From the NCBI GenBank assembly GCA_025355505.1, contig JANXZM010000079.1:1-64000 (forward strand): a stretch of 64,000 nucleotides of DNA, read 5' to 3'. The translations under genes were made by a program, and so were the position numbers. Positions 6,101-22,190 of the stretch are shown one piece after another. Source of the DNA: Acidobacteriaceae bacterium. Its GTDB lineage: Bacteria; Acidobacteriota; Terriglobia; Terriglobales; Acidobacteriaceae. The notes under the pieces were generated by a model, which saw nothing but the letters and a program-made list of their open reading frames with translations, ran no database searches and had not been told where the DNA came from. How positions within the stretch are numbered: the first letter of the stretch is position 1; each line of letters begins with the position of its first letter.

Positions 6101-6266
6101 ATCGCCATTGGCTCTTCTCGTGAAATTAAGCGGCCTTTCCCGGAGCACCCTCATCGAAATTCGAGCAGGACGTAGTAGGCCGCACCCTAAAAATCGACGG
6201 ATGCTCCTGACAGTTCTGAAAAAGCTCGTGATAGCCCCCGGCGAAGGCAACACCAGCCGCGAGTGA
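3141..6266 (+). CDS. family B DNA polymerase of element A
   Basis: The product is 1041 residues. Exonuclease motifs are present: FDTET (Asp43, Glu45), AFNFPFD and YNRRD. Polymerase motifs follow: DFLSMYP (motif A, from residue 357), KVLANAASYG (motif B, Lys539) and EDTDS (motif C, residues 621-625). It therefore looks active in synthesis and proofreading. An inserted zinc ribbon with Cys723, 726, 737 and 740 is absent from the element B polymerase. The C-terminus carries a helix-turn-helix-like segment (LSRSTLIEIRAGRSRPHP) resembling the tail of the element B Cas1. It is the third gene of the HTH-HNH-PolB operon. Such a polymerase probably copies the element during transposition. I cannot tell from sequence alone whether it uses a protein primer. 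Confidence 0.9.
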   Translation: MPHRDPTSLVLAVRVYPGLEDENLDSDKRPRKWRRPAAMFVFDTETRTDQTQRLTFGSYRLIDAGQLVKENVFYGTTLPTRDRRILERYASVPRSIVLTEATHSLTLLTRNEFAKKLFSAAYKGRALLTAFNFPFDISRIACKSSDARRRYAGGFSFELWSYFKGGDERRHRYRPCICIKHIDSKRALKGFTARVTPDEEDRIPEGSMTGDPEEDYVFHGHFLDLRTLAFALTDRGFTLKAACNAFGVEHGKQTVKQHGLVTKNYIDYNRRDVLATSELAVKLLEEYDKHPIDLQATKAYSPASIGKSYLRAMEIPPILERQPDFPKQYLGYAQSAFFGGRTSAHIRKVPVPVVYTDFLSMYPTVNSLMGLWSFVTAGEIGVVEHCQKEIEAFLSQVNIDTMFDPATWKRLRAFVRVIPDGDILPSRGGYSSQGNDWQVAVNHLYAGSTSPNDALWFSLPDIVASVLLCKGRVPRIVDAFRIEAHGKLSGLSSTKLRGQIDVDPAKQDFFKVVIEERKNLPKRVDISDQEKERLDKFLKVLANAASYGIYAEMHRTESDHKTEVTCHGVDAEPFKCRVAHPDERGDYCFPPLASLITGAARLMLTLVERRVADQGGTYAMEDTDSMAIVATESGGTVRCLAAEPNTINALSWKQVRTISDRFMALNPYEGEAGSGSILKIEDDNRDPKTEKQRQLHCFAISAKRYALFLINDDRTPTLLRASCPSCGHKNKPNVSRCVGCLKSVQLNNVEDRWSEHGLGHLLNPTDPESDDREWIAKAWLSMVRKALALPTVPLGIESLPAVGQITVSSPAVMKPLKNLNEGLQYPDQIKPFNFLLTCHVRPLGHPLGVDPERFHLISPYEKDSRQWLKKDWIDQYSGKDYRITTTGHHGDRRTARVKTYGDVLIEYEYHPESKCADANGDTCSKQTVGLLQRRHVRIQQLKYIGKESNSLEEVESGLIHSEQSVYTEYPDPRRDEWQTKILPALKESPLALLVKLSGLSRSTLIEIRAGRSRPHPKNRRMLLTVLKKLVIAPGEGNTSRE

Positions 6267-9064: not shown

Positions 9065-9370
9065 ATTCTGGCCCACTCACGCAGTCCAAGCCTAACGAGG
9101 CGGGAATGCAGTTTGGATTTGTCGCCAAACTAAGCATTATGAACAAAGCACCTTCCGACGAAGGCGACGACGACACCGATAAGTATGTATACAAGTCCCC
9201 AACGGATATTTCCTGCAACGAAGTCTCGATTTAGGTCACTTCGTATCTTTATCACTATTCCAATCTGCGCCCACACGTCGGGTTGTTTGTCATTCTCGGG
9301 TCACCCTCCCGTCCCACCTGTTTACCACTCGGTAACGAGACCGGTTTCAAAGTGCTCCACCTCCTATCCC
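9065..9370. other. intergenic stretch left of element B, no gene seen
   Basis: No convincing coding frame. A small hairpin TTACC-ACTC-GGTAA lies near 9321-9334. The stretch ends with TATCCC directly against the 14-bp target repeat, which makes 9370 a candidate right end of element A, but no clear match to the element B terminal repeat is visible. Confidence 0.4.
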
Positions 9371-9384
9371 CGCACAAGTTTGAC
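9371..9384 (+). repeat. target-site duplication, left copy
   Basis: CGCACAAGTTTGAC lies immediately outside the left inverted repeat and recurs identically and in the same orientation at 19243-19256. Fourteen bases is within the 14-15 bp duplications known for casposons. Confidence 0.9.
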
Positions 9385-9422
9385 GGGGTACTATGACCTG
9401 AGGGGATTTTGCTACACCCCCA
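9385..9422 (+). repeat. left terminal inverted repeat of element B
   Basis: A 38-bp sequence beginning GGGGTACTATGACC and ending TTTGCTACACCCCCA. It is the exact reverse complement of 19205-19242. No mismatch was found when the two were compared base by base. Confidence 0.92.
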
Positions 9423-9562
9423 CCCCCACTGGACTTGGACGCTGGAGGGCCGGGGCGCGCGCGCGTGCGAGGCGGGGTGGGTGAAGGAGCGGACGAGCGG
9501 GGGTCAATGAGCGTAATCGCCTGGTTACGCCAGTTATCGCGCCCTGCCTTCCGCCGTGATGC

Positions 9563-9595
9563 AAAAAAAAGACCGCCCAGACATCGGGCGGCTGA
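9563..9595 (-). terminator. intrinsic terminator after the beta-helix gene
   Basis: On the minus strand the stem CCGCCCGATGTCTGGGCGG is followed by a run of eight T residues. It lies 23 bases past the stop codon of the beta-helix gene. Confidence 0.8.
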
Positions 9596-9617
9596 TATTG
9601 CTATGAACTGGCAAACC

Positions 9618-10556
9618 TTATTTCATGCTGTCTCGGGCTTGTGCAGGGCTGGCAGGCTCAACACAGTTTGTAATACCGCCCGTTCTTGCGACAAAGTGAG
9701 TAATCGTGAATTGCGGGGCGCAGTCTACGTCCAGACCACTCAAGTTACCCGTTACGGTGGCCGATTGGAAACCCGCGAAAGAGGCGTCTTCCAAGTGGAC
9801 ACCGTTCCCGCCATTGCCGGTGATTGTTGCACCATCCCGAAACACTACTATGGAGCCACCGAGCAATGTCACGCCATTACCGATGCTCCCACTGATGGTA
9901 CCGCCGTGGAGTAGCAGATTGGCCGCGGCCGCCAGAATGCCAACCCCGTTGTTGAGGAAGCTGGAATTGGAAGCTACGAAGTAAGCCCCGCCCCCAAGGG
10001 CGACTCCGAGCTCATTGCTTTGGAAGATGTCATTACTGCTGAACATTTGCGATCCATCATCGACGTTTGCACCGAGGAACCCATTGTTTTGGATCACATT
10101 GCTTTCGAGAAAGGCATGGGAGCCACGACCTACCCAGAAACCATACCCTACCGCACCCTGAATCGTGTTGCCGGTCAGGTAGCAGAGACTTGCGGTACTG
10201 CACAGGATACCCTGCGCCCCGCCGTTGATGGTGAATCCCTGCAGGCTTACACGCTGCGAATCCTCGATATCCACGACCGGCAAGGTTCCCCCGGAACGAT
10301 CCGTGATTGAGGCTCCCGTTTTGGTGATCAGAGTCAGGTGGTCCATACCTCGAATCACGAAGTTTCCCTTGCAGCTGCCCAAAACAGTAATCGTGTTCGG
10401 CCCTTGCGGATTGGTTGCTGCAAGAACTCTCAGGGCTTTACGAATGGTTTCCTTGTTGTCGCAATTCACGGTTAGGTTCGCAGCCTGAGCACACTGGCTT
10501 GCCGCCCCAATGGCCACCAACAGAAAGAATGCAAGAACCCTTGTCCTCTGCCTCAT
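9618..10556 (-). CDS. secreted right-handed beta-helix protein, passenger of element B
   Basis: The product is 312 residues from ATG 10556, which has GAGGAG at ideal spacing; the frame is open further upstream but without such a signal. Residues 1-25 are a signal peptide (RVLAFFLLVAIGAAS, cleavage after AQA). The rest consists of short repeats rich in Gly, Asn and Ser, each with a turn such as LTGNTIQGAV, LESNVIQNNG, FVASNSSFLNNG and TITGNGGNGV. This is the pattern of parallel beta-helix (pectate-lyase-like fold) proteins with right-handed coils. No catalytic motif is recognised. It is transcribed alone, with its own terminator. Its presence inside a casposon is unexplained; it may act at the surface or outside the cell. 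Confidence 0.8.
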   Translation of the reverse strand: MRQRTRVLAFFLLVAIGAASQCAQAANLTVNCDNKETIRKALRVLAATNPQGPNTITVLGSCKGNFVIRGMDHLTLITKTGASITDRSGGTLPVVDIEDSQRVSLQGFTINGGAQGILCSTASLCYLTGNTIQGAVGYGFWVGRGSHAFLESNVIQNNGFLGANVDDGSQMFSSNDIFQSNELGVALGGGAYFVASNSSFLNNGVGILAAAANLLLHGGTISGSIGNGVTLLGGSIVVFRDGATITGNGGNGVHLEDASFAGFQSATVTGNLSGLDVDCAPQFTITHFVARTGGITNCVEPASPAQARDSMK

Positions 10557-10920
10557 GATGTTCTCCTCTCTCACTTCAGTGAGTGTGGTGCTTTTTGCTG
10601 AGTTCGTTTGATCCTCCGCCAATGCGGACACGCCCACGGCGGTTCCGCCCGGCATACCCCGGCGCACAGCAGTGCATCTCATGACACACACTTAGTCAAC
10701 TTGTGCTTGCAATCCCCGATACGGGTTCGAAAAGCCAGAGCCTAGGAAGGGAAGAGAGATTGGCTAGGTATGAGGCTCCCCACAAAGTGCCTGCAACAGT
10801 GCGCCTAAACGAAGCCATTGTCAAGGTGCGCGAATTTGCGGGGTCCCCCTAACCGGTGCTGAACTCGCATAGCTGTTGTAAAATCCCGTTTACACTCATC
10901 GACGCTCATGCCGCTCAGCT
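10557..10920. other. intergenic region between polB and the beta-helix gene, no gene seen
   Basis: No coding frame is convincing. It should hold the promoter of the leftward beta-helix gene; a TTGACA hexamer occurs on the minus strand at 10824-10819 but no good -10 box follows, so it is not called. Confidence 0.4.
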
Positions 10921-13806
10921 CTAGACGATTTCATCCAATATTTTCAAACACTTAGCCAGCTTGATCGCGCGTACCGGCTCCCGATTGCAGATTTTCTCCA
11001 ATGTGTGCTGATTAATTCCGCGCCGCATGAACTCCCGCTTCGGAACCTTTGCGATGCGCGCCAATTGTTCGGGATCGGCAATGGCATTCCCTCTCCGCCT
11101 GTACTCGATGGCTTTGAAATCCAGCAAACTCGGGTCTTCCCCCACTTCCCAGTGCCGGTCGGATTCTTTCCCGATGTAAGTTGGCGGCCAGTTTGCAAGC
11201 ACGTGCGCGCGTTGCAAGAACCCTCGCGTATCGAACTCGCACGGCTTCCCGTCCGGCCCCAGGCTCTTGGCTTCAGGGTGATTCTGGTACGAGTCCAGAA
11301 GCATGAAGAAATTCTTTACCAGTGCGCGACTACCGTCGTAATCATCTGTGAGTTCGTAAACGGGAGATTCGCCATCGTGAATGTTGATGCACTTCGCGCG
11401 CATCCACTGATCCCGCTCGGATGAGAATGAAGTAATCAGCGTAAATTTGTTCGGGTCGGTATTTTGCGGATATCCAAACCGGCAAATTTGGGGCAGCATC
11501 ATGAAATTGTGCGGTCTCGTGAGCGGACATTTGGCAAGGTTTTTCAGAGCATGATGCGGGGTACTGAGGGTCAACCTCATCATTACTGGAAGATCGAACC
11601 ATGCAGGTTTTGTGCGCTCCAATCCGAGAACCCCGCGCACGATCCAGTCCCAAGCCTCAAAAATCCACTCGGGCGTTTCGTGTTTCCATCCCTCAGGCGA
11701 ATCTTTTGGAGGATAGAAATAGCCGAGCCCATGTGCCTTGGGCTCAACGATTTGAATGTCATTCTCGCTTTTCGTGTAGAGCGCGTATCTTTTTGCAGCA
11801 ATGGCGTAGCCGTACAACTGGCGCTGCTGTTTGTTTTTGTCCCAATTTAATTTCTGAATTTTCAAAATCGAGCCGTCGATGGCGTAGGGATTGAGCGACT
11901 TGAATCTGTCAGTAATTTGCTGAACTTCGACCGATGAAAGCGCCGTGATCGGCTTCGCACCGCCCGGCATTGCTATTTGTTGCCGTGTTTCCGTGGAAAC
12001 GATGGCCGCGCTATCCGTGTCGCAAAACAAATACGTCCCGCCCGCGTCAGTGATGCATTTTTCGAGCATTGCCAGAAGCAGGCGACCGCCGGACGTGATG
12101 AGTGAAGCAATGTGCGGCGCAAACCAATCCCCAGGTTCCTCTACTACGTCTGACTGCGTAGAAAATGAATCTTCTCCCGAATGGACGTGCAGTTCTGTCG
12201 CATCAGCGTCATTAGGGTTTAGCTCCACGAATAGTCCGTATGATCCGCTATTGGCGAGGATTTTCAGCCAATAATGGAGTGCCGGATTCGACTCGTTAGC
12301 AGCACGCTGCTCGATGACGTGCCTAAAGAAGCTATGTTTGCTGGCATCCACATTCACCATGCCGCGCAGGGACGTTGAACCTAGTCCGGTCTGTTTACCG
12401 TGCGGCACGACGCGAATCGCTTTTTCGATGTGCGGAACTTTCCCGGTTAGGAGAATGGATGCAATGATGTCCGGGCCTGCGAACCAGAGCGCTTCCTTGC
12501 TCGTGAGGTAATTGATTCCAATATTTTGAGTTGTGCCGTTGTACACGGTCCGTACCGGCAGGATGTCATTGTCCGGACGAACGAGCGCAAAGAACCTGAA
12601 TCGCGGCCATAACTTGCGATCAAAGCAACGGTCGAGCGTGATCCGCGCAAGAAATTTCCGCACTTCGTTTGTGGCGTCGGGAAAAGTTACATTTTGTGCT
12701 GTTAGGACACCCCAATTCCCCAGAAGCTCGTTGACGGTCGGGTACTGCGACATGAAATCGACGGGGCAGACTGGTACTTCCCAATTCCGAATACGGCACT
12801 CCGCGCGTCCGCCAAAGTAGCTCTGCATGAAAATGCCATAGGCGTAATTGGCATCCTTGACCTTTCCACTCGGATACGAAATCTTGAGTTCCTCAAGGTA
12901 CGCCTTCGCAACACTCGCCGGGCTGAACATGCGGTCGGGACCGGGGGCGATAGGGTGCTGGTCGTACTCCCGCTTTGCTGCGTTAAGAAGACCTACTGTA
13001 GATCGCACGTCGTGGCGGCAATATTCGATCTCGTCCCGATCAACGCGTCCGCTCGGCTTATGGTCCATCTTCCCTGGAACACCAAATTCCTTGCACGCTG
13101 TTTTGAGGGAATAGGATTTATTGCGAAGGGCCCAAAGTAGAGTCCGCAGGTCCAGGAACTGACCGCGTGGCCAGAGCTTCGCCTGTTTGCCTTTTGACCT
13201 GTGAAGGGTTACAGGAGCGCGTGTCGAACTGATGATGGCTGCTTTGCTATTAAGTGCCTGGATGACCACGCGAGGAAAGGATTCATCAGGTTCTAACTTT
13301 CCGCTCTCCGGGTTGCGCCATTGTTTCATTATGAGCGTCCATCCGCCGTTTTGCGCCGGGTTCCAATCCAGGGCGATACGGCTTAAATCGAATGGAAGAT
13401 TGAACCCTACGATTAGCGCCTTAGCCTGAATTGCCATCCCGAAGACCTCTCCGATAAACTTTGTACGAGCGTACAGACGCAAACGGTCGCACCCGTCGTC
13501 TGTGGTATCGGGCTTTGTGTTTCTCGCGTACTTGCGGAGCAAATCGAATTCTTTCGCGGTAAGCCCGTTGTCATCGTGAAAGATCCTCTCTTCGAGAAGG
13601 ACGTACTCTCCATTTCGCGATTCGCAGAATCGCCAGAAGCCGAACGTCAGAGTTTGGTCTGCTGTGATGCGCGATTCGCAATCGAAGACGAACGCATAGT
13701 CGGGCCATTTGAGTTCGCTGTCTTGCCACATGCTTTTGGTCTGCTTTTTCTCCAGTTGCACCGTGTGTGCTCGAACATAAATGTCTTGCTGTTTAGCTTC
13801 GGTCAT
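10921..13806 (-). CDS. family B DNA polymerase of element B
   Basis: The product is 961 residues from ATG 13806, which has GGAGG at good spacing; an upstream ATG at 13824 overlaps that signal. Proofreading motifs are FDCES (Asp42, Glu44), GFNLPFD and YCRHD. Polymerase motifs are DFMSQYP (from Asp350), KILANSGSYG (Lys515) and CDTDS (residues 595-599). All catalytic carboxylates are present. It is collinear with the element A polymerase but lacks its inserted zinc ribbon. The C-terminus has a short helical DNA-binding-like region (RRGINQHTLEKICNREP). It ends the HTH-HNH-PolB operon, seven bases after the HNH stop. It probably replicates the element before Cas1-mediated insertion. Confidence 0.9.
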   Translation of the reverse strand: MTEAKQQDIYVRAHTVQLEKKQTKSMWQDSELKWPDYAFVFDCESRITADQTLTFGFWRFCESRNGEYVLLEERIFHDDNGLTAKEFDLLRKYARNTKPDTTDDGCDRLRLYARTKFIGEVFGMAIQAKALIVGFNLPFDLSRIALDWNPAQNGGWTLIMKQWRNPESGKLEPDESFPRVVIQALNSKAAIISSTRAPVTLHRSKGKQAKLWPRGQFLDLRTLLWALRNKSYSLKTACKEFGVPGKMDHKPSGRVDRDEIEYCRHDVRSTVGLLNAAKREYDQHPIAPGPDRMFSPASVAKAYLEELKISYPSGKVKDANYAYGIFMQSYFGGRAECRIRNWEVPVCPVDFMSQYPTVNELLGNWGVLTAQNVTFPDATNEVRKFLARITLDRCFDRKLWPRFRFFALVRPDNDILPVRTVYNGTTQNIGINYLTSKEALWFAGPDIIASILLTGKVPHIEKAIRVVPHGKQTGLGSTSLRGMVNVDASKHSFFRHVIEQRAANESNPALHYWLKILANSGSYGLFVELNPNDADATELHVHSGEDSFSTQSDVVEEPGDWFAPHIASLITSGGRLLLAMLEKCITDAGGTYLFCDTDSAAIVSTETRQQIAMPGGAKPITALSSVEVQQITDRFKSLNPYAIDGSILKIQKLNWDKNKQQRQLYGYAIAAKRYALYTKSENDIQIVEPKAHGLGYFYPPKDSPEGWKHETPEWIFEAWDWIVRGVLGLERTKPAWFDLPVMMRLTLSTPHHALKNLAKCPLTRPHNFMMLPQICRFGYPQNTDPNKFTLITSFSSERDQWMRAKCINIHDGESPVYELTDDYDGSRALVKNFFMLLDSYQNHPEAKSLGPDGKPCEFDTRGFLQRAHVLANWPPTYIGKESDRHWEVGEDPSLLDFKAIEYRRRGNAIADPEQLARIAKVPKREFMRRGINQHTLEKICNREPVRAIKLAKCLKILDEIV

Positions 13807-13813
13807 TTTTTCT

Positions 13814-14260
13814 TTACCTCCCATTTGTCCGATTAGGTCTTGCTACGTCCCGCGCGGATCGGTTTTCGAGCAAAGTCGCCCACCTGCGGTATGAAGTCGC
13901 TAGCGCGTCAAAGAGCACAGCCGAACCCCTGAGCATCAGAGCTATGAGCTTGAGTAGATTTGTCTCAGGGCTCATACTGACCCCTTCGCTCGCAAGTCCC
14001 TCCGTAATCTCCCGATGGCAATTAAGGCAGAGCGTCACGATTAGGTTGGGATCATGCGCTTCCCCGACTATGTGATGGTCCTGAAGGAGACGATTTAGGC
14101 GGTCTCTCGGGATTCCTTTCGCTTCAAGCCACCGCCGCGTTACGAGAGTGAGCGATTCCAGACACGCATAGCCGCAGAAAAGACAAAAGGCATCGGTTCC
14201 AAGGCGATCTTCCCTCTGGGATTTTCGTCGCGCCGTACGGATTGGGCACGGGTCGCTCAG
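13814..14260 (-). CDS. HNH nuclease of element B, probable CTG start
   Basis: The open frame holds a classical HNH domain: Cys26-x2-Cys29, DHHIVG (Asp61, His62, His63), HDPNLIV (Asn72) and CLNCH (Cys78, Cys81, His82). The whole product would be 148 residues. No ATG, GTG or TTG precedes the domain. The first codon after an in-frame TGA is CTG at 14260-14258, which overlaps the TGA stop of the preceding HTH gene (CTGA), as expected of a coupled start. The GTG at 14038 is inside the domain and would remove the active site. The C-terminal helix (LLKLIALMLRGSAVLFDAL) resembles that of the element A HNH protein. The nuclease probably nicks or cuts DNA during element replication or excision. Confidence 0.75.
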   Translation of the reverse strand: MSDPCPIRTARRKSQREDRLGTDAFCLFCGYACLESLTLVTRRWLEAKGIPRDRLNRLLQDHHIVGEAHDPNLIVTLCLNCHREITEGLASEGVSMSPETNLLKLIALMLRGSAVLFDALATSYRRWATLLENRSARDVARPNRTNGR

Positions 14261-14775
14261 TCAGCACCGCCGTTGAATGTCCGATACAGGGAGAAATCGG
14301 ATAGCGCGGGTTCGATGGCCACGATAGCGCGTCCGGCCGTAACCAGTTCCACTCCGGCGATTCGTTTTCCGTGCCAGGGCGCAAGAGCATCGCGCTTCCC
14401 GCGCAAGTAGCGTCCCAAATCGCGAAGGTAGAGGCCAAGCTGTTCACGTTCCTTTGAGGAATGAGTTTTGACGGCAACGGAATTACCGTGTGCATCGGGA
14501 ACGTAGAGCGTTGCTGCGTAACGGTCACTCTTCGTAGCTCGGAATTTGCCATTAGCTTGTTTCAGCGCAGACGGAAAGTATTTCTTAATCGTTTCGCGTT
14601 TGACGCCTTGCAGCTTGGCGGCGTGAGTTAGCGAAAGATTTGAATCGTGGCGCATGGCCGCCAGAACGTGCATGGCACGGTCACGCGCCGCTTGACTACG
14701 CTCTGATAACTGCGAGATGGGAAACGAGCGAGGCTGGCGACGTTTCCGGCGAGAAGGAGTTTGAGATTTTGCCAT
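14257..14775 (-). CDS. basic helix-turn-helix protein of element B
   Basis: The product is 172 residues. The N-terminus is basic (SRRKRRQPR). Residues 47-66 (LSLTHAAKLQGVKRETIKKY) form a typical helix-turn-helix. The conserved block NGKFRATKSDRYAATLYVPDAHG matches the element A homologue at 1995-2558. It is first in the HTH-HNH-PolB operon; its stop overlaps the CTG start of the HNH gene. Three direct repeats lie just upstream (14826-14971) and are the natural candidates for its binding sites, either for autoregulation or for origin recognition. Confidence 0.75.
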   Translation of the reverse strand: MAKSQTPSRRKRRQPRSFPISQLSERSQAARDRAMHVLAAMRHDSNLSLTHAAKLQGVKRETIKKYFPSALKQANGKFRATKSDRYAATLYVPDAHGNSVAVKTHSSKEREQLGLYLRDLGRYLRGKRDALAPWHGKRIAGVELVTAGRAIVAIEPALSDFSLYRTFNGGAD

Positions 14776-14825
14776 GCTCGCGAGGATAGGGATTCATCTA
14801 ACCACCTTTGTAGTACTCGGCTTTG

Positions 14826-14971
14826 TTTGCGAGTATTCAGTCCCTTTTTGAGTGCGATTGCAAGCTTACGTGCTCGCATTTATTTGCGAGTAGGCTGAAC
14901 CCGTAAGCCTCAATATATCAAGGGATTCTAAGGTTCCTACCTGCATCTATTTCGCGAGTAGGCTGAAGCCC
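14826..14971. repeat. three direct repeats (iteron-like) upstream of the HTH operon
   Basis: TTTGCGAGTATTCAGTCCC at 14826, TTTGCGAGTAGGCTGAACCC at 14883 and TTTCGCGAGTAGGCTGAAGC from 14950 share the core GCGAGTA followed by CTGAA or TTCAG. A degenerate fourth copy (ACGCGGGTAGGC) lies near 15010. Copies are spaced 57 and 67 bases. They lie in the leader region of the HTH-HNH-PolB operon and resemble operator sites or plasmid-type iterons. Confidence 0.6.
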
Positions 14972-15033
14972 CCCCCGGAGCTGGTTTTAGAAGTTTTGCC
15001 GCTTTAGAGACGCGGGTAGGCAAACGAGCGACT

Positions 15034-16011
15034 TCAACTCGCCCTTTGTGCTTCTTGGCGAACCCGCCGGATTTTTCGGCGCAGGCCCATATCACTCCAG
15101 GCTTCTTTCCACGTAAGCCCGTCCCGCCATTCTCCGCTTTCTGTCCAATCCAAGAGCGGAGGTGCATGTCGCTTGTCTAACTCGGCGCAGAATTCCATTC
15201 CTTCCAAGCTGGGCTTGGCGCTTAGCACCTTCTGAATTGCGCTGTAAAGTTTGAGTCTTTGCTTCCAGCCCTTCCGCTTATTCGGCCCCCGCCCTGGCTT
15301 GTTGCCCGCCTCCACTCGAACCGCACCAGCGGCGGCAGTTTCTTCGTTCCGGACTGTTCCGATTGCAGCTCCTAAGTCCCACAAAAACGCTCGCCGCGCT
15401 CCCTTAAGCAGCAAGCGAGTGTGAGCCTCTCCCAATCTCTCTTCGGAGTCTCTTGCTGGGACGTGCTGCTCCTTTAAGGGTCCGACGCCAAGTACTGGGG
15501 AGATTGCGAAGAGCCAAGCGGGAGCGCGCCAAGATGTCGGCGGTGGAATTGGTGGAAGGCTCAGTGGTATAGGAAGCGAAACGGTCGCCCCCGGAACGAA
15601 CTTTGTTGAAGCGAGACGTCGCATACTTTGATTCTCGCCATCACAAGCCAAAATGTACCAATCACGGATCCAAACCAGCACAACGCAGACAGCAGGCCAA
15701 AGCTGTGCTTGCGCCCACTTGTCTGAATCACCCCCGGCCTGGCTCACGTGGGCCAGGGCCAGTTTGAAGTACCGGCGGTAGCTGTCGGCCAGAAGTACAA
15801 CCATGTCCCTGCGCAAAGGAAGAAAATGTCGAAAAAACGGGCTCGTTTTATTCCCAACGGGCATCCGCTCGATCTCGCCGTGGGCCATAAGTGCTTCTGT
15901 CTTACCCCAAGAGTCGAGCTGGGCGAACCCATCCTCGAATAGTTCGCCAATGGCTTTCAGAGCCGGTGTTAAGGTGTGAAGCAGGGCGCGGTTTGTGCGC
16001 GTCATTCGCAT
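15034..16011 (-). CDS. element B protein of unknown function
   Basis: The product is 325 residues from ATG 16011. No family is recognised. The N-terminal 130 residues are helical, with a hydrophobic segment (LWPAVCVVLVWIRDWYIL) that could be buried or membrane-associated. A proline-rich stretch follows (PIPLSLPPIPPP). The C-terminal third is basic (GRGPNKRKGWKQRLKLY) and ends with DMGLRRKIRRVRQEAQRAS, suggesting nucleic-acid binding. It is divergent from cas1 with 96 bases between the two starts, and leads toward the HTH operon on the same strand. Its position mirrors that of the AT-hook/zinc gene in element A but orientation and sequence differ. Confidence 0.6.
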   Translation of the reverse strand: MRMTRTNRALLHTLTPALKAIGELFEDGFAQLDSWGKTEALMAHGEIERMPVGNKTSPFFRHFLPLRRDMVVLLADSYRRYFKLALAHVSQAGGDSDKWAQAQLWPAVCVVLVWIRDWYILACDGENQSMRRLASTKFVPGATVSLPIPLSLPPIPPPTSWRAPAWLFAISPVLGVGPLKEQHVPARDSEERLGEAHTRLLLKGARRAFLWDLGAAIGTVRNEETAAAGAVRVEAGNKPGRGPNKRKGWKQRLKLYSAIQKVLSAKPSLEGMEFCAELDKRHAPPLLDWTESGEWRDGLTWKEAWSDMGLRRKIRRVRQEAQRAS

Positions 16012-16023
16012 GGCCGAATAAGA

Positions 16024-16029
16024 TATAAT
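16024..16029 (+). promoter_or_regulatory. possible -10 box of element B cas1
   Basis: A perfect TATAAT lies 84 bases upstream of the cas1 ATG and just before the leader hairpin. No convincing -35 hexamer is seen at 17 bases spacing, so this is tentative. Confidence 0.35.
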
Positions 16030-16046
16030 GAATTCAGCAACTTAGC

Positions 16047-16082
16047 GGGACGCGCGGGTGTAATCAGCACCCAACGCGCCCC
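16047..16082 (+). promoter_or_regulatory. hairpin in the leader of element B cas1
   Basis: Arms beginning GGGACGCGCGGGTG and ending CACCCAACGCGCCCC pair around a TAATCAG loop with small internal mismatches. The spacer to the start codon (CACCACCA, then GGAAGGATACTCCAATG) is nearly identical to that of the element A cas1, while the stem itself differs. The conserved arrangement points to a selected RNA structure. Confidence 0.45.
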
Positions 16083-16107
16083 TCACCACCATCGGAAGGA
16101 TACTCCA

Positions 16108-17631
16108 ATGGCAGCTTCGCACACCCTACCGCACTCGCGCGCCATCCGCAAATCTGGCGTTCTCGTATTGAACGGCTATGGCATTCGCGTCCAAGTGAAT
16201 GCCGGTCATTTGTTCTTGCATGATGGAATAGCGGACGAGCGCCGGACAATCCGCCTGGCCCGTGTAAATCATGGCCTCAAGAGGCTGGTAATGATCGGGA
16301 GCGATGGCTTCATCACCCTTGGGGCGCTCCGCTGGATTTCTGACGTGGGCGCAGCGTTCGTGATGCTTGACCGCAGAGGCAAGGTGCTCGCCGTCACTGG
16401 TCCCGTTTCTTCTTCGGATGCCAAGCTCCGCCGAGCGCAAGCGCTCGCACTCGGCAACGGAAAGGCACTCAAGATTTCCAAGGAACTCATCTCCCAGAAA
16501 CTTGCCGGGCAGGAGCTACTCGTACGGGATATGCTGCACGATGCTGCGACGGCAGACGCGATTGCTCAATTCAGAGACGAGTTACCGAGCGCGGAGAGCA
16601 TGGAGGTTGTAAGGCTGATTGAAGCCCAAGCGGCGAGGCTATACTGGCGGGCTTGGTCTGACATACCAATTTGCTGGCCCCGAAAGGACGAGCACCGCGT
16701 ACCCGAACATTGGAAGCGCTTCGGTTCGCGCATCTCACCCTTGACCCACAGCCCGCGCCTTGCCGCCAATCCGCCCAACGCCCTGCTCAATCTTCTATAC
16801 GCACTTTTGGAAAGTGAGGCGCGTCTTTCTGCCGCTGCAATGGGTCTTGATCCAGGTATTGGGTTGCTACATGTAGATGTACCTAGCAGAGATTCACTCG
16901 CTTGCGACCTGATGGAAGTCTGTCGCCCCAAGGTGGACGCGTTCGTTCTTGATTGGCTTCGGAGCGAGCCTCTTTGCAAATCGGACTTCTTGGAAGATCG
17001 CAATGGTAACTGTCGCATCGGGTCATCGTTGGCAATCAAGCTCTGCGAGACTTCCGACACCTGGCGCAAACTCGTGGCTCCGATAGCAGAATATGTTGCG
17101 CAAAAACTCTGGTCCTCGATTTCCAAACCTACATCAACGCCCGCCCGACGACTGATCGCAACTCGCCTTACTCAGCGAAACAAGCGCGAAGTAAAGGGCA
17201 GTGAGGTGCCCGGAGTAAAGCAACCGAAGCCGGAACACGTCTGTAGCGGTTGTGGAAAGACCATCAGGGCCGAGCGAAAACATTGTGCAAACTGTGCCAT
17301 TGACGGGGCAACCGAACGCCTTACGGACGCAGCGCAAATTGGGCGAGTAGCTGCGCGCAGCCCCGAAGCTCGCGCCAAACACGCGGCCTCACGGCGACGG
17401 CACGCAGAGGCGTGCTCGGAATGGGACGCATCGAAGCAACCATCTTGGCTTACGAGTGAAGTGTTCTCGCAAGAAATCCAACCGCTGCTCGCGGGCATTT
17501 CAACATCCGCCATTCGATCACGGATCGGAGTTTCCCGCTGGTACGCGGGTCGGATTCGCGAAGGCTACCGCCCGCATCCCCGGCACTGGCTGGCGCTGGC
17601 GGAACTCGTGGGTGTTTCAGAAGGTGTGTGA
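16108..17631 (+). CDS. cas1: Cas1-family integrase (casposase) of element B
   Basis: The product is 507 residues from ATG 16108, set by GGAAGGA upstream and the matching start in element A. The N-terminal beta-rich domain is followed by the helical catalytic domain with YALLESEAR (catalytic Glu235 or 237), GLLHVD (His255) and CDLMEVCRPK (Asp267, Glu270), all expected of an active Cas1. A tail beyond ordinary Cas1 contains a zinc knuckle (Cys379, 382, 393, 396) and a final helix-turn-helix near residues 460-505 (ISTSAIRSRIGVSRWYAGRI). Casposases have such tails for recognising element ends. It would join the element's inverted repeats to the 14-bp target. No cas2 or CRISPR repeat is nearby, so a role in CRISPR adaptation is unlikely. 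Confidence 0.93.
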   Translation: MAASHTLPHSRAIRKSGVLVLNGYGIRVQVNAGHLFLHDGIADERRTIRLARVNHGLKRLVMIGSDGFITLGALRWISDVGAAFVMLDRRGKVLAVTGPVSSSDAKLRRAQALALGNGKALKISKELISQKLAGQELLVRDMLHDAATADAIAQFRDELPSAESMEVVRLIEAQAARLYWRAWSDIPICWPRKDEHRVPEHWKRFGSRISPLTHSPRLAANPPNALLNLLYALLESEARLSAAAMGLDPGIGLLHVDVPSRDSLACDLMEVCRPKVDAFVLDWLRSEPLCKSDFLEDRNGNCRIGSSLAIKLCETSDTWRKLVAPIAEYVAQKLWSSISKPTSTPARRLIATRLTQRNKREVKGSEVPGVKQPKPEHVCSGCGKTIRAERKHCANCAIDGATERLTDAAQIGRVAARSPEARAKHAASRRRHAEACSEWDASKQPSWLTSEVFSQEIQPLLAGISTSAIRSRIGVSRWYAGRIREGYRPHPRHWLALAELVGVSEGV

Positions 17632-17824
17632 GCAACTGACTCTTAATTGCTTTCACGTCAGCCATTTTCGTTATTTTTCAACGGCTTAGATGTTGTCACG
17701 TGCTGTGGAATGCTGCTGTTTTTGCCTGCATCAGTGACAGATAAGTGATAGCTTTTCGAGCGAATTCTCGGCGGGAGAGCAACGGCGCAAAAGTCAGTTG
17801 CTACTTTCCCCCAGAGCCCTTCAC

Positions 17825-18220
17825 CTAACCTGACCGTTTGCACGGGAACGCTTTGTTAAGCGCCTTCATGGTGTTGATGCTCGCAGGCAAGTGGAGTTCG
17901 CTGGGATTTTCTTTCCCATAATGCAGTACTATCAGTGCCATTTGCTTTAGCGTGACCCCCTCGGGAATATCGCACAGCATCGTTCTTTCTCCTGAGCCTG
18001 TGGCCACTCCAAAAGCATAACCGTCCACTACTCCCTGAATGTAGCTCATGCACGTTGTTACACTAATCAACTCCGCCTTGCTCAATTTCTCGTAGTCCGA
18101 TTCTGCGTACCGGCACTCTTCCATGAGGTCCTCCGCTGTCTTCGCAGATGCAATTCCCGCAGCAGCGGACTTTTGAAATACAATCAGTAGCACGACAAAC
18201 AGCCACAGTCTGGTTTTCAT
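17825..18220 (-). CDS. secreted Rap1a/Tai-like protein, passenger of element B
   Basis: The product is 131 residues from ATG 18220. A signal peptide is visible (RLWLFVVLLIVFQKSAAA). The mature part has the layout of the Rap1a immunity-protein domain: MEECRYA, then CMSYIQGVVDGYAFG, then LCDIPEGVTLKQMALIVLHYG, ending KALNKAFPCK with four conserved cysteines. Founding members neutralise type VI secretion effectors in the periplasm, but the domain is widespread with unknown roles. It stands alone with no adjacent effector. Its role as casposon cargo is unknown. Confidence 0.7.
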   Translation of the reverse strand: MKTRLWLFVVLLIVFQKSAAAGIASAKTAEDLMEECRYAESDYEKLSKAELISVTTCMSYIQGVVDGYAFGVATGSGERTMLCDIPEGVTLKQMALIVLHYGKENPSELHLPASINTMKALNKAFPCKRSG

Positions 18221-18280
18221 AACTGAGATTGTGCGCCTTACTCTGAACGCTGGCAATACTTCCAACGGTGGAGGTCTGGA

Positions 18281-18518
18281 ATGGCGAAATACGATAGGCT
18301 CACGGAATGGCTGAAAAAACCGAAGCTGCCGCTCACGTTCAGCGAGATAGAAACGATTATCGGGGAAAGGCTGCCAGACTCAGCCGCACAGCACCGGCCT
18401 TGGTGGGGGAAATGAGGTGAACGCTGAATCTCGGCAGTGTCACGCTTGGCTTGATGCAGGATGGCAGGTTGATTCCGTGGACCTGAAAGGCAAGGGGGTA
18501 GTTTTCAGGAAACTGTAG
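18281..18518 (+). pseudogene. frameshifted small KYDxL...RxWW protein (likely DUF7662)
   Basis: From ATG 18281, with GGAGG upstream, the frame reads KYDRLTEWLKKPKLPLTFSE and RPWWGK, then stops. One base later in frame the protein continues as EVNAESRQCHAW, LDAGWQVDSVDL and VVFRKL to TAG at 18518. The two halves together match a small family I recall as DUF7662. The break falls in a GGGGG run near 18406-18410, so a one-base insertion or a sequencing error explains it. Function unknown. Confidence 0.65.
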
Positions 18519-18552
18519 GGGCTTCGCAGATGGCAACGCGGAGCCTCACTTC

Positions 18553-18690
18553 CTACTTAATGGGGCGCTGTTTCAGAACGCCCTGCCACATCCGGTACAC
18601 GTCCGTGACTCTTTCTGGAGTTTCCCGCTTGCCCAGAAGTTCTAAGATAGTGAGAATCGCCAGGACTGTTTCGTCGCTTGGGTTTGCCAT
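18553..18690 (-). CDS. possible small ORF, 45 residues
   Basis: From ATG 18690 with AGGAA upstream, the frame encodes a helical 45-residue product containing ETVLAILTILELLGKRE. It overlaps the end of the truncated ORF 18557-18919 in another frame and looks the better coding candidate there. No family is recognised. Confidence 0.3.
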   Translation of the reverse strand: MANPSDETVLAILTILELLGKRETPERVTDVYRMWQGVLKQRPIK

Positions 18691-18919
18691 CGTGTTTCCT
18701 TCCTGCTTTCTTTTTTACGCGGGCGAACACGAGCTGGGAAAGTTCCCATGATGCGCGAATGCGGTTCGGGTTCACTTCCCGTAGGAGTCTCGGATATTCT
18801 TCAGGAACATACTGGTGCGCCGCTTTGCCGTCACCACAGACAACTTGCCCTTCCCATCCGTACTTCTCGAATCTATTTTTTAATCGTCCGTCAACGAACT
18901 CTGTGACTGTGAGGCTGGC
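18557..18919 (-). pseudogene. 5'-truncated ORF abutting an IS remnant
   Basis: The frame reads SLTVTEFVDGRLKNRF, YGWEGQVVCGDGKAAHQYVP and REVNPNRIRASWELSQLVFA and looks coding. Upstream of about 18920 it runs antisense to the IS1595 remnant, so its natural start appears to have been replaced. The segment past VKKKAGRKHDGKPKRR is probably out of frame. No family assigned. Confidence 0.35.
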
Positions 18920-19144
18920 GTGTGCATCACAACGAACGCCATCGAAGGCCATTTTGCGACATTGAAGCGCGGGATCAATGGGGTGTACCATCATGTCGGC
19001 AAGCAGCACCTGCATCGCTACTTGAGCGAATTTGATTTCAGGTATAACTCTCGGAGAGAAAAAGACGGAGATCGCACATTGATGGCGCTCAGCAGTGTAA
19101 GCGGGAAACGGTTGATGCTGCGGAACTCAAAGCAGCCAAATTAG
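18920..19144 (+). pseudogene. IS1595-family (ISXO2-like) transposase, C-terminal fragment
   Basis: The frame encodes TTNAIEGHFATLKRGINGVY, HHVGKQHLHRYLSEFDFRYN and DGDRTLMALSSVSGKRL, the conserved end of ISXO2-like transposases (NxxEGxxxxLKRG with the catalytic Glu, then HLxRYxxEFxFRYN). The N-terminal two thirds are absent; upstream codons do not fit the family. It is a decayed insertion sequence inside element B and cannot be active on its own. Confidence 0.8.
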
Positions 19145-19174
19145 GAGCAAAGAATCTTTCCCCAAAAGCATAAA

Positions 19175-19192
19175 GCCCGCCTGCCAGCGGGC
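19175..19192 (-). terminator. hairpin inside the right end of element B
   Basis: The stem GCCCGC-loop-GCGGGC is followed on the minus strand by TTTATGCTTTT, giving a terminator-like signal. It may insulate the element from transcription entering from valS-side DNA. Confidence 0.45.
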
Positions 19193-19204
19193 CTCGTGCT
19201 TGAA

Positions 19205-19242
19205 TGGGGGTGTAGCAAAATCCCCTCAGGTCATAGTACCCC
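19205..19242 (-). repeat. right terminal inverted repeat of element B
   Basis: Exact 38-bp reverse complement of 9385-9422, ending CATAGTACCCC. It meets the right copy of the target duplication at 19243. Confidence 0.92.
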
Positions 19243-19256
19243 CGCACAAGTTTGAC
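19243..19256 (+). repeat. target-site duplication, right copy
   Basis: CGCACAAGTTTGAC, identical to 9371-9384. Host DNA of the valS upstream region starts here. Confidence 0.9.
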
Positions 19257-19329
19257 CCTTCTTTTCTCACGCCTGTAAGATCAATCATTCCCTCCTTCTG
19301 CCGGAAAATCTGCCGAGCTTGCTCGGCCT

Positions 19330-19370: not shown

Positions 19371-22190
19371 ATGCCGCACGAATTGCCGAAAGCTTACGAA
19401 CCGGGCGCGATTGAAACGCGCTGGGCCGAGTATTGGGTGCGGGAAAAACTGTTTCAGGTGGAGACGCCTGCGCCTGGAGATTTGCGTCCGGTGTTTACGC
19501 TGCTGTTGCCGCCGCCGAATGTGACGGGGCGGTTGCACATGGGGCACATGCTGAACCAGACGCAGATGGACATCGTCGCGCGCTGGCATCGCATGCGCGG
19601 GTTTGTCACGCTTTGGCTGCCGGGCACGGACCATGCGGGCATCGCTACGCAGATGATGGTGGAGCGTCAGCTTGCGAGAGAAGGCAAGAAACGGCGCGAG
19701 ATGGGGCGCGAGAAATTCATGGAGCGGGTTTGGGAATGGCGGCGCGAGTATGGCGGCGCGATCCTTGAGCAGATGAAGCGGCTGGGCGCGTCGGTGGATT
19801 GGGGGCGCGAATACTTCACCATGGACGACAACCTGTCGCATGCGGTGAAGGAAGTTTTCGTGCGGCTGTATGAAGATGGGCTGATTTATCGCGGGAAGTA
19901 CATCGTGAACTGGTGCTCGGACTGCGGGACGGCGATTTCGGATCTCGAAGTGAAGCATGAGGATGTCGCGGGGAAGTTGTATGAGATCCGGTATCCCGTT
20001 GTTGGCGGGGTCAATGGGAAAGAAGAATTTATCACGGTGGCGACTACGCGGCCGGAGACGATGCTGGGCGACACGGCGATTGCGGTGAATCCGAAGGACG
20101 AGCGCTACCTGCATCTGCAGGGCAAGCATGTGCTGCTGCCGCTGATGAATCGGGAGATTCCTATTATTGCGGATGAACTGGCGCAGCCTGAATTTGGCAC
20201 GGGCGCGGTGAAGGTCACGCCGGCGCACGATCCAAATGACTTCGAGGCTGGCGTGCGGCACAACCTGCCGCAGATCGAAGTGATTGACGAGCACGCCAAG
20301 ATGAATGCAAATGCCGGCGCTTACGCGGGGCTGGATCGCTTTGCGGCGCGTGCTCGCGTGGTGGAAGACCTCTCCGAGCAGGGCTTTCTTGTGGGCACGA
20401 AGGATTACACGATTGCGCTCGGCAAGTGCGACCGCTCGGGCACGATTGTGGAGCCGCGGCTCTCGACGCAGTGGTTCGTCAAGATTGCGCCGCTGGCGAA
20501 GCGGGCAATTGAAGTCGTGGAGAAGGGATACATCCGCTTCACGCCGGAAAATTACGGGCAGATGTATTTGAACTGGATGAATAACATCCACGACTGGTGC
20601 ATCTCGCGGCAGTTGTGGTGGGGACACAGGATTCCGGCGTGGTATTGCACGAACAACGATTGCAAGGAAGTGGTGGTGGCGCGGGAGGCTCCGACGGCGT
20701 GCAAATGCGGCAGCACGAAGCTGGAGCAGGATACGGACGTGCTGGACACATGGTTTTCGTCGGGGCTGCTGCCGTTTACGACTTTGGGCTGGCCTGCGGC
20801 TGCGCGGGACCAGGAAGTGTTCTATCCCAATTCGCTGATGATTACGGGGTTCGACATTTTGTTCTTTTGGGTGGCGCGGATGATCATGCTCGGGTGCTGG
20901 TTCATGATGCCACCGCACAAGCCGGGCGGGAGTTTGGCGTCGGACGGCGATGCCAACGAAGACGCGCTGGGCGCGAGCGTTCCCTTTCGCGAGGTTTACA
21001 TCCACGCGCTGGTGCGCGATGCCGACCGGCAGAAGATGTCGAAGACGAAAGGGAACGTGCTCGATCCGATCAAGGTGATCGGGCAGTACGGGACGGACGC
21101 GACGCGCTTCACCCTGGCGGCGATGGCGGCGCCGGGGACCGATATCGCGTTCAGCGAGACCCGCACGGCGGGCTATCGGAATTTTGCCAACAAGATCTGG
21201 AATGCGGCGCGGTTTATGTTTATGCACGTGGATCGCGTGGAGCCGGGCTTGCGGCCCGGGGACCCTTCGGCTTCTCTCAGGGCAGGCTCGGGGGACGCGG
21301 GTCTCTCCAGAAGCGGCGGCATTGCCGGGTTTCAGACTGAGACGCTTGAAGACCGGTGGATTCTCTCGCGGTTCAATCGGGCGGCTAAGGACGTGAACGA
21401 GTCTCTCGGGACGTATCGTTTCGATGAGGCGGCGAATCGCATCTACGATTTTTTCTGGGCCGAGTTTTGCGACTGGTATATCGAGCTGATCAAGCCGCGA
21501 CTGAACTTCGAGGAAGGAGCGGAGACGGGACCAGCTCGAATTGCATGTGCAAATCTGGTGAATCTGTTCGAGGCATCGTTGCGGTTGCTGCATCCCGTGA
21601 TGCCGTTTATCACGGAAGAAATCTGGCACGCGATATACGATGGCAGGCCTCCGCTGAAATCGATTGCGCTGGCGGCGTATCCGGCGGCGGACGAAAAACA
21701 GATTGATCTGGGGGCGGAGACGGAGATGGCGATTCTGCAGGATTTGATCGTCAGCGTGCGCAATCTGCGGGCGGAGTTGAAAGTTGAGCCCAAGGTGAAA
21801 GTGCCGATTGAGGTGTTTGCGCATGAGCCGGCGATTCGCGCGATGCTCGAAAAGAATCTTGGTGCGGTTCTGCTTGATCGTCCGGCGAATGTGGAGAAGA
21901 TTACGTTTGTGGAAAGCTCGCTGTCGAACTTACCGGGAGGGCGCAGCACGTCGCGGTTCGATGTGCATGCGATCTACGAAAAAAAGATCGACGTAGCGGC
22001 CGAGCGCGAGCGTCTAACGAAAGAGCTGGAGAAGATTGAAAAGCAACTGGCCAGTGCGAAGCGCAGACTTGGCGACGAGCAATTTCTGGCGAAGGCGCCG
22101 GCAAAGGTGGTGGAGGGGTTGCGCAAGCAGGTAGAGGAATCGGCCACGCTGCGAGACAAGCTCCTCGCCAAATTGAAGGAGCTGAAGTAG
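19371..22190 (+). CDS. valS: valyl-tRNA synthetase
   Basis: Charges tRNA-Val with valine. The product is 939 residues from ATG 19371 (AGGA just upstream). The class I signatures are HMGH (residues 56-59) and KMSKT (from Lys555). The editing domain lies between, with TTRPETMLGDTA. The anticodon-binding domain (LEDRWILSRFN) and a C-terminal coiled coil (RERLTKELEKIEKQLASAKRR) complete a full-length enzyme. Near residues 624-656 a Pro/Gly/Arg/Ser-rich stretch containing GLRPGDPSASLRAGSGDAGL interrupts the usual sequence between the catalytic and anticodon domains; it looks like an in-frame repeat insertion. Element B lies immediately upstream, so the promoter may have been displaced. Confidence 0.96.
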   Translation: MPHELPKAYEPGAIETRWAEYWVREKLFQVETPAPGDLRPVFTLLLPPPNVTGRLHMGHMLNQTQMDIVARWHRMRGFVTLWLPGTDHAGIATQMMVERQLAREGKKRREMGREKFMERVWEWRREYGGAILEQMKRLGASVDWGREYFTMDDNLSHAVKEVFVRLYEDGLIYRGKYIVNWCSDCGTAISDLEVKHEDVAGKLYEIRYPVVGGVNGKEEFITVATTRPETMLGDTAIAVNPKDERYLHLQGKHVLLPLMNREIPIIADELAQPEFGTGAVKVTPAHDPNDFEAGVRHNLPQIEVIDEHAKMNANAGAYAGLDRFAARARVVEDLSEQGFLVGTKDYTIALGKCDRSGTIVEPRLSTQWFVKIAPLAKRAIEVVEKGYIRFTPENYGQMYLNWMNNIHDWCISRQLWWGHRIPAWYCTNNDCKEVVVAREAPTACKCGSTKLEQDTDVLDTWFSSGLLPFTTLGWPAAARDQEVFYPNSLMITGFDILFFWVARMIMLGCWFMMPPHKPGGSLASDGDANEDALGASVPFREVYIHALVRDADRQKMSKTKGNVLDPIKVIGQYGTDATRFTLAAMAAPGTDIAFSETRTAGYRNFANKIWNAARFMFMHVDRVEPGLRPGDPSASLRAGSGDAGLSRSGGIAGFQTETLEDRWILSRFNRAAKDVNESLGTYRFDEAANRIYDFFWAEFCDWYIELIKPRLNFEEGAETGPARIACANLVNLFEASLRLLHPVMPFITEEIWHAIYDGRPPLKSIALAAYPAADEKQIDLGAETEMAILQDLIVSVRNLRAELKVEPKVKVPIEVFAHEPAIRAMLEKNLGAVLLDRPANVEKITFVESSLSNLPGGRSTSRFDVHAIYEKKIDVAAERERLTKELEKIEKQLASAKRRLGDEQFLAKAPAKVVEGLRKQVEESATLRDKLLAKLKELK
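21240..21335 (+). repeat. in-frame repeat insertion within valS
   Basis: The segment contains GGCTTGCGGCCCGGGGACCC and CTTCGGCTTCTCTCAGGGCA, the kind of small dispersed repeat often found between genes in GC-rich soil bacteria. Here it adds about 30 residues (core SASLRAGSGD) without breaking the valS frame. Confidence 0.55.

Follow-up and report, generated by a model that had tools for sequence, protein, structure and literature searches.

Casposons are mobile elements akin to the ancestor of the enzyme that inserts CRISPR spacers. The core of casposon families 2 and 3 has been described as Cas1, a family B DNA polymerase, an HNH protein and an HTH protein (Krupovic et al. 2014, PMC4046053), and the same description gives the bacterial family 3 casposon AceAut-C1 a zinc-binding domain and an HTH fused to the C-terminus of Cas1 (PMC4046053). 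For family 3 the published insertion sites are described as intergenic (PMC6614799), and M. mazei is known to have elements inserted in tandem at a single site (PMC10359463). As to what their integrases, the casposases, recognise, the published accounts state that only five terminal nucleotides matter for integration in A. boonei, so that the rest of the end must serve something else (PMC6614799), that the M. mazei casposase without its HTH gives no integration (PMC6977970), and that family 1 casposases choose their targets without an HTH (PMC6614799). A different set of mobile elements, the TnGBS, ISLre2 and ISKra4 group, is described as inserting upstream of sigmaA promoters, always at a set distance from them, which leaves the gene intact (PMC3942029).

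The window analysed here is a 64,000-nucleotide stretch of an Acidobacteriaceae genome, and it contains a complete casposon, which we call element B, in tandem with a truncated one, element A (Table 1). The pair stands beside the promoter of a host gene that, from its translation, we take to be valS. A sequence-only reading of this DNA had proposed that the reading frame at 16108-17631 encodes a Cas1 integrase of mobile elements outside any CRISPR context, with 38-bp ends and a 14-mer as their target, and these proposals are borne out. The ends are perfectly complementary and the 14-mer CGCACAAGTTTGAC flanks element B, the two copies being identical at 14/14 positions and the only ones in the window; core casposon genes surround the frame; and each of the three Cas1 matches in the window's genome lies inside a casposon. 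The Cas2 family PF09827, whose coverage does not extend to E. coli-type Cas2, has no match in that genome. We regard it as virtually certain that the product of 16108-17631 is the integrase (casposase) of a casposon.

Table 1. Features of elements A and B and of the adjoining valS promoter, in window positions
Feature	Position	Strand	Remarks
Element A casposase, cut by contig start	3..1169	-	Glu, His, acidic pair and first CxxC kept, then cut off
Element A polymerase	3141..6266	+	C-terminal HTH homologous to Cas1 tail
Promoter-side end of element A (GGGATAGGAGGTGGAGC...)	9333..9370	-	resembles known TIRs
Promoter-distal TSD CGCACAAGTTTGAC	9371..9384	+	junction common to elements A and B
Casposon, element B, 9,858 bp	9385..19242	.	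TIR, TSD, core genes
Left terminal inverted repeat (TIR), 38 bp	9385..9422	+	100% complementary to 19205-19242
Cargo: beta-helix protein	9618..10691	-	Pfam E 4.9e-15
Family B DNA polymerase, 967 aa	10921..13824	-	phrog_1907 DNA polymerase E 9.4e-11
HNH-like nuclease gene, start codon tentative	13859..14254	-	75% identical to L051 and L072 genes
Conserved small HTH-like protein	14257..14775	-	relatives in other elements; Pfam HTH_31 E 0.012, below cut-off
Protein of no recognised family	15034..16011	-	among 19 loci searched, relative only in element C (L004)
Casposase (Cas1)	16108..17631	+	ORF 507 aa; ATG 16108, stop 17629-17631
Zinc knuckle, residues 379-396	17242..17295	+	C379, C382, C393, C396 invariant in 28/28
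Predicted HTH, residues 450-501	17455..17610	+	structure models
Cargo: Rap1a-like protein	17825..18265	-	Pfam E 7.8e-18
Right terminal inverted repeat, 38 bp	19205..19242	-	pairs with 9385-9422
Promoter-proximal TSD CGCACAAGTTTGAC	19243..19256	+	its TTGAC is part of the valS -35 box
-35 hexamer TTGACC of valS promoter	19252..19257	+	
-10 hexamer TAAGAT	19276..19281	+	spacer 18 bp
Host gene valS	19371..22190	+	outside element

The element B polymerase shows the motifs DxE, SxYP, KxxANSxSYG and DTDS, which we take to be those of family B polymerases; its Pfam match to DNA_pol_B_2 lies below the cut-off (E 0.021), and its profile has no match at E 0.01 among PDB sequences. The HNH-like gene is missing from the ORF list. 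It is matched by the PHROG HNH family (E 0.0026) and, below the cut-off, by Pfam HNH (E 0.11, and 0.0087 and 0.012 for its relatives in L051 and L072). The protein encoded at 15034..16011 has no significant family match. No transposase family was found by Pfam among the seven element B proteins scanned, and no tRNA in the window.

The 507-aa casposase matches Pfam Cas_Cas1 (E 4.6e-40) and scores above the cut-off of NCBIfam TIGR00287. When it is aligned with 27 relatives, E172, H255, D267 and E270 (the catalytic Glu, His and Asp/Glu) are invariant in 28/28 sequences, and the Glu, His and acidic pair are seen, as the earlier reading had it, in both this protein and the Cas1 of element A. The M. 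mazei casposase 6opm is the nearest solved relative, both by sequence (E 2.5e-21) and by fold (Foldseek E 1.7e-19). When the full model is aligned with it by VIA-align, Z is 28.9 over 310 residues (rmsd 3.2); since this alignment spans residues 15-340 only, it is silent on the tail. The C-x2-C...C-x2-C knuckle ascribed to the complete Cas1 is present with all four cysteines, and structure prediction of the tail, which had been put forward as a check, returns the final HTH, its identity by fold match being below significance. In the full AlphaFold model the Cas1 fold is followed by helices and an HTH, with residues 450-501 at pLDDT about 88-93, and the tail folded alone again forms the HTH helices (pLDDT >90). 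Foldseek matches of the tail are mostly XRE/lambda-repressor-like and none is significant (best E 0.34), Pfam matches lie below the cut-off (HTH_3 E 0.12; zinc-ribbon E 0.09-0.9), and the tail profile finds no convincing relative among PDB sequences, the best being a designed protein (E 0.23). As fold and Pfam matches are below significance, the predicted knuckle and HTH rest on conserved residues and structure models. The protein is not new, since a Cas1 with zinc-binding domain and HTH has already been described for a bacterial family 3 casposon, and architecture and element alike are of known kinds.

Element A extends from the contig start to 9370, its left end missing, and has the TSD at 9371-9384 in common with element B. 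A third element, C, lies on another contig of the same genome (L004), and at a fourth place (L041) two casposon ends enclose a TSD. Close relatives occur in 23/399 genomes sampled from the class, 45/398 from the family and 9/396 from the phylum, samples that overlap and that each include the window's genome. All of the 49 loci from named genomes, found by a search with two peptide patterns, carry titles of groups that we place under Acidobacteriota, and a same-genus contig, of G004, is identical to a named Acidobacteriaceae contig (L029 and L043). No casposase was found on plasmids in 72,556 records; IMG/VR holds one casposase locus.

Insertion sites were collected with a motif-free finder that looks for inverted ends with at least 15/25 bases alike and 13-15 bp direct repeats; it is blind to loci cut by contig ends or by the 20-kb limit and to elements without a 13-15 bp TSD, and an initial run gave an element in 7/20 loci only. 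It returned 25 distinct elements (26 rows, L039 and L087 being the same element), all of which hold at least part of a Cas1 gene. The 14-bp TSD ends in TTGAC in 21 of these and lacks it in four (L071, L080, L094, L118), and in L071 the insertion appears to be inside a reading frame. We then asked about the flank beyond TTGAC at 19 sites, L032 and L057 standing outside the count with another casposon end as flank, and L045 and L106 having been reversed in orientation relative to the simple rule before either motif was counted. TAnnnT follows TTGAC at 17/19 sites, after 17 bp in eight and 18 bp in nine, and at no other spacing within 10-25 bp; the two sites without it read GAGACT (L026) and AATACT (L125). 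The last TSD copy of L032 reads TTGACG-17-TATTAT, and L094 read in the opposite direction reads TTGCGT-17-TATACT, a post hoc observation by eye that does not enter the counts.

In the same sequences TAnnnT stands at such spacing beside 56 of 2,222 other TTGAC sites and 13 of 157 GTTTGAC sites, and the upstream flank of the insertions, read in the same way, has it at 0/19. Because several sites belong to the same gene in different genomes, we also counted per target gene: eight of ten have the -10 motif (p 7e-12 and 9e-8 against the two control rates). Downstream lie valS (six elements), tRNA-Gln (three), rplU and a radical-SAM gene (two each), and thrS and five others (one each), names that, tRNA-Gln excepted, are our reading of the translations. 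The valS promoter itself, GTTTGACC-18-TAAGAT or TAGTAT, is found in 18 of the 20 relatives fetched, occupied or not, and the two without it belong to another family of the order. Casposon ends outside the discovery set give a further count: TTGAC is at the expected offset in six of ten strictly independent ends, off by one base in two (L110, L101) and absent from two (L064, L123). These ten were sifted by hand from 28 rows, 22 of them flagged, by dropping nine with discovery-set TSDs, four valS rows, and five rows, four from G307 and one from L049, that share their 14-mers with L126 and with the window.

TTGAC at the end of the TSD, followed by TAnnnT after 17 or 18 bp, identifies the target as a sigma70-type promoter. 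Judged by such consensus matches, the target of these Acidobacteriota casposons is very probably the promoter -35 region, a point on which the sequence-only reading is silent, and casposon identity and promoter target are, on the same footing, highly likely to hold together. Selection against insertions within genes could inflate the promoter share. At the promoter side the element ends 9 bp before TTGAC. On the target the two joints are 14 bp apart, one of them within the -35 hexamer, directly after TTGAC, and the other farther upstream; as the 14-bp duplication reaches into the -35 box, insertion restores that box and leaves the element just upstream of the promoter.

A model for such insertion would run as follows. 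The Cas1 core would join the termini, which end in GGG, to the target in the manner of the M. mazei enzyme. Target choice would read the -35/-10 pair; most likely, though at no better than about an even chance, the zinc-knuckle/HTH tail reads it directly, and otherwise the choice would be made via another casposon protein or RNA polymerase. That the tail takes part in choosing the target is plausible because the M. mazei enzyme fails without its HTH, although family 1 casposases choose targets with no HTH, and such a role would be compatible with one common target motif alongside a strongly conserved tail; no covariation ties tail to target, as the target hardly varies.

Both boxes are present and 17 or 18 bp of spacing is allowed, as for polymerase, and this would be expected if RNA polymerase or a sigma factor set the target, the casposase being tethered to it or drawn to the open complex. 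The characterised casposases are described as picking sites alone in vitro (PMC6614799, PMC6977970), and we consider this route possible but rather unlikely. A simpler account is that the casposase recognises a short motif only (GTTTGAC or TTGAC), promoters being enriched since insertions into genes are lost and -35 boxes hold the motif. TTGAC is the invariant part of the sites, and the A. boonei casposase is reported to need short motifs only (PMC6614799). However, TTGAC sites are mostly in reading frames (1,892/2,375 in a rough ORF count), so selection alone would need to remove nearly all other insertions; a -10 follows 13/157 GTTTGAC sites as against 17/19 targets; and valS is used by as many as six elements. 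A short motif as the whole explanation is accordingly improbable, and direct reading of the promoter by the Cas1 tail remains the account that we prefer.

The sequence-only reading had expected the tail to confer specificity for the ends or for the target, with residues that track the different ends of elements A and B. Mantel tests bear on the ends in 15 of the 25 elements, those whose Cas1 and polymerase genes were usable (ten were left out, and the polymerase of L026 and L063 was partial or split), using an ungapped TIR score in place of a gapped one with visible artefacts; both scores point the same way. A raw correlation of TIR similarity with the Cas1 tail (r 0.32, p 0.004) favours a tail that reads the terminal repeats, but it vanishes with polymerase held constant (-0.03, p 0.59; HTH alone -0.10, p 0.83) and drops to 0.18 (p 0.06; -0.08 partial) without one near-duplicate, L029. 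TIR similarity correlates with polymerase similarity instead (Mantel r 0.74, p 0.0002; 0.71 with Cas1 held constant), and does so without L029 (0.67; 0.66 partial). For the last 8 nt of the ends, the Cas1 core gives 0.39 (p 0.001) and the polymerase 0.38 (p 0.003). The ends follow the polymerase lineage, not the Cas1 tail, and a tail that tracks the ends is not supported. This fits the A. boonei finding that no more than five terminal nucleotides matter for integration (PMC6614799), which likewise speaks against reading of the repeats by the tail, a reading that we now consider very unlikely. The inner TIR would be read for replication by the element's polymerase or a co-inherited protein, not by Cas1. 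An HTH at the polymerase C-terminus is homologous to the Cas1 HTH (hhalign probability 96.8, E 2.3e-10, 27% identity over 51 columns) in one polymerase group, which includes element A and excludes element B.

That the protein is a Cas1 left over from a lost CRISPR locus, or domesticated from one, as its Cas1 fold and TIGR00287 score might suggest, is next to inconceivable given perfect TIRs and TSD, the polymerase and HNH-like genes, related elements at many sites and a genome in which PF09827 Cas2 was not found.

Insertions recur at one and the same promoter, so that elements lie in tandem between identical 14-bp repeats. Elements A and B form such a tandem pair, and in 14 of the 21 TTGAC-targeted elements CCC, as at the end of an earlier element, stands directly upstream of the far TSD. 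Longer series exist. In L032 two units are set between three identical TSDs, the last of which is followed by a promoter; Cas1 lies in the distal unit, and the proximal unit appears to be the more decayed. In G307 three TSDs (at 2821149, 2831983 and 2845854), again identical to one another, precede the tRNA-Gln promoter; the unit near the promoter holds full-length Cas1 and PolB, the distal unit a fragment of Cas1. The intact element is thus next to the promoter in two cases (element B, G307) and the reverse holds in one, and as L032 shows the opposite order to G307, promoter-proximal growth of the arrays is only a suggestion. Casposons at the promoter of tRNA-Gln(CTG) were seen in L105, L106, L126 and G307 (L109, L102).

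Among 17 valS promoters with upstream sequence, a casposon end lies exactly at the junction in 11, a remnant 25 bp away in one and neither in five. In 10 of these 11 no second TSD copy was found in stretches of 2.3-20 kb, the short ones of which could miss a complete element. In this same-genus set (L131-L148), 11 of 17 promoters keep the junction end without a nearby Cas1 element, as if old, eroded insertions had left their promoter-side end behind. In another named genome (L049, about 3684-3697, minus strand) CGCACAAGTTTGAC lies between two other casposon ends. That casposons with a promoter-reading integrase grow arrays in this way, with the core promoter as leader, the 14-bp duplications as repeats and whole elements as units, is a tentative proposal, to which we give somewhat less than even weight.

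The cargo of these casposons is often defence-like. Element A carries a Pycsar-like anti-phage pair (6324-7007 and 7305-7862, both on the minus strand), matched in PADLOC by PycC models to E 2.9e-26 and PycTM models to E 3.3e-16, the latter protein lying below the cut-off in Pfam (E 0.0013). A cargo scan of 17 elements covered 131 of 186 reading frames, leaving out Cas1, polymerase and short frames, and its PADLOC matches were taken in two halves, as the best 25 of 96 and the best 25 of 167 models. Among the matches listed, defence-like candidates occur in L026 (11437-15390), in L004 (12484-16875) and in the cargo of L071-L094, and include PDC-M54A (E 7.7e-212), PDC-M30B/M41B, a PD-T4-6-like kinase, type IV restriction and others. 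In L023 (7578-13468; genome G001; the same stretch as L060, JAIQEY010000065.1) a type I-C CRISPR module lies inside the casposon and adjoins the casposase. PADLOC finds in it type I-C Cas5c, Cas8c, Cas7c and Cas3c, and the array, also inside the casposon, comprises five spacers of 33-36 nt between six identical 32-nt repeats. The repeat has no other copies in G001 at up to 3 mismatches, and the spacers match only themselves among the collected loci, and one 16-nt stretch of L103; no match of the CRISPR stretch was found in phages. The casposase is the only Cas1 match in G001 (listed as 99% complete with 7% contamination), in which PF09827 Cas2 has no match.

If arrays do grow as proposed, these casposons would be a present-day counterpart of the arrangement of leader and repeats that is taken to have given rise to CRISPR arrays, and a natural analogue of leader-proximal array growth. 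One relative, L023, holds both an I-C interference module and a six-repeat array, and the casposase is the sole Cas1 match of its genome. Some 25 natural insertions with one common, meaningful target make the proposal testable. Promoter targeting would also help to explain how large elements whose cargo is defence-like can lie next to essential genes, the polymerase correlation points to the polymerase, not the integrase, as the partner of the inner TIR, and an integrase that prefers bacterial promoters could serve as an insertion tool. In the open-licence literature, the published 2014 TSD table lying outside the comparison, we did not find promoter targeting by casposons.

Element B resembles family 3, as AceAut-C1 is described (PMC4046053), in its bacterial host, Cas1, family B polymerase, HNH, HTH protein, TIR and TSD, a likeness of gene content and description rather than of position in a Cas1 tree. 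It differs from family 3 as described in its Acidobacteriota host and in the uniform 14-bp TSD at the -35 box. With the available descriptions of family 2 (M. mazei, A. boonei) these casposons have in common a 14-bp TSD, a TIR starting GGG, tandem insertions and a Cas1 with C-terminal HTH, and the element A polymerase group further resembles that family in the similar HTHs at the C-termini of Cas1 and PolB (PMC4046053). Family 2, however, is described as using tRNA gene 3' ends (PMC4046053), whereas the sites here are promoters, including that of tRNA-Gln, and the target in the window is the valS promoter; unlike in family 2, a zinc knuckle lies between Cas1 core and HTH. As in CRISPR arrays built by Cas1-Cas2, Cas1 acts at a leader-adjacent site that is duplicated upon insertion, but here the units are whole transposons, the adjoining promoter reads away from them and the genome has no PF09827 Cas2. 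A parallel in target is the TnGBS, ISLre2 and ISKra4 group. Those elements are described as inserting 15-17 bp upstream of the -35 box through Mutator-like DDE transposases (PMC3942029), whereas here the distance is 9 bp, the duplication reaches into the -35 box and the integrase is Cas1. The strategy of targeting promoters therefore has a precedent, in an unrelated enzyme.
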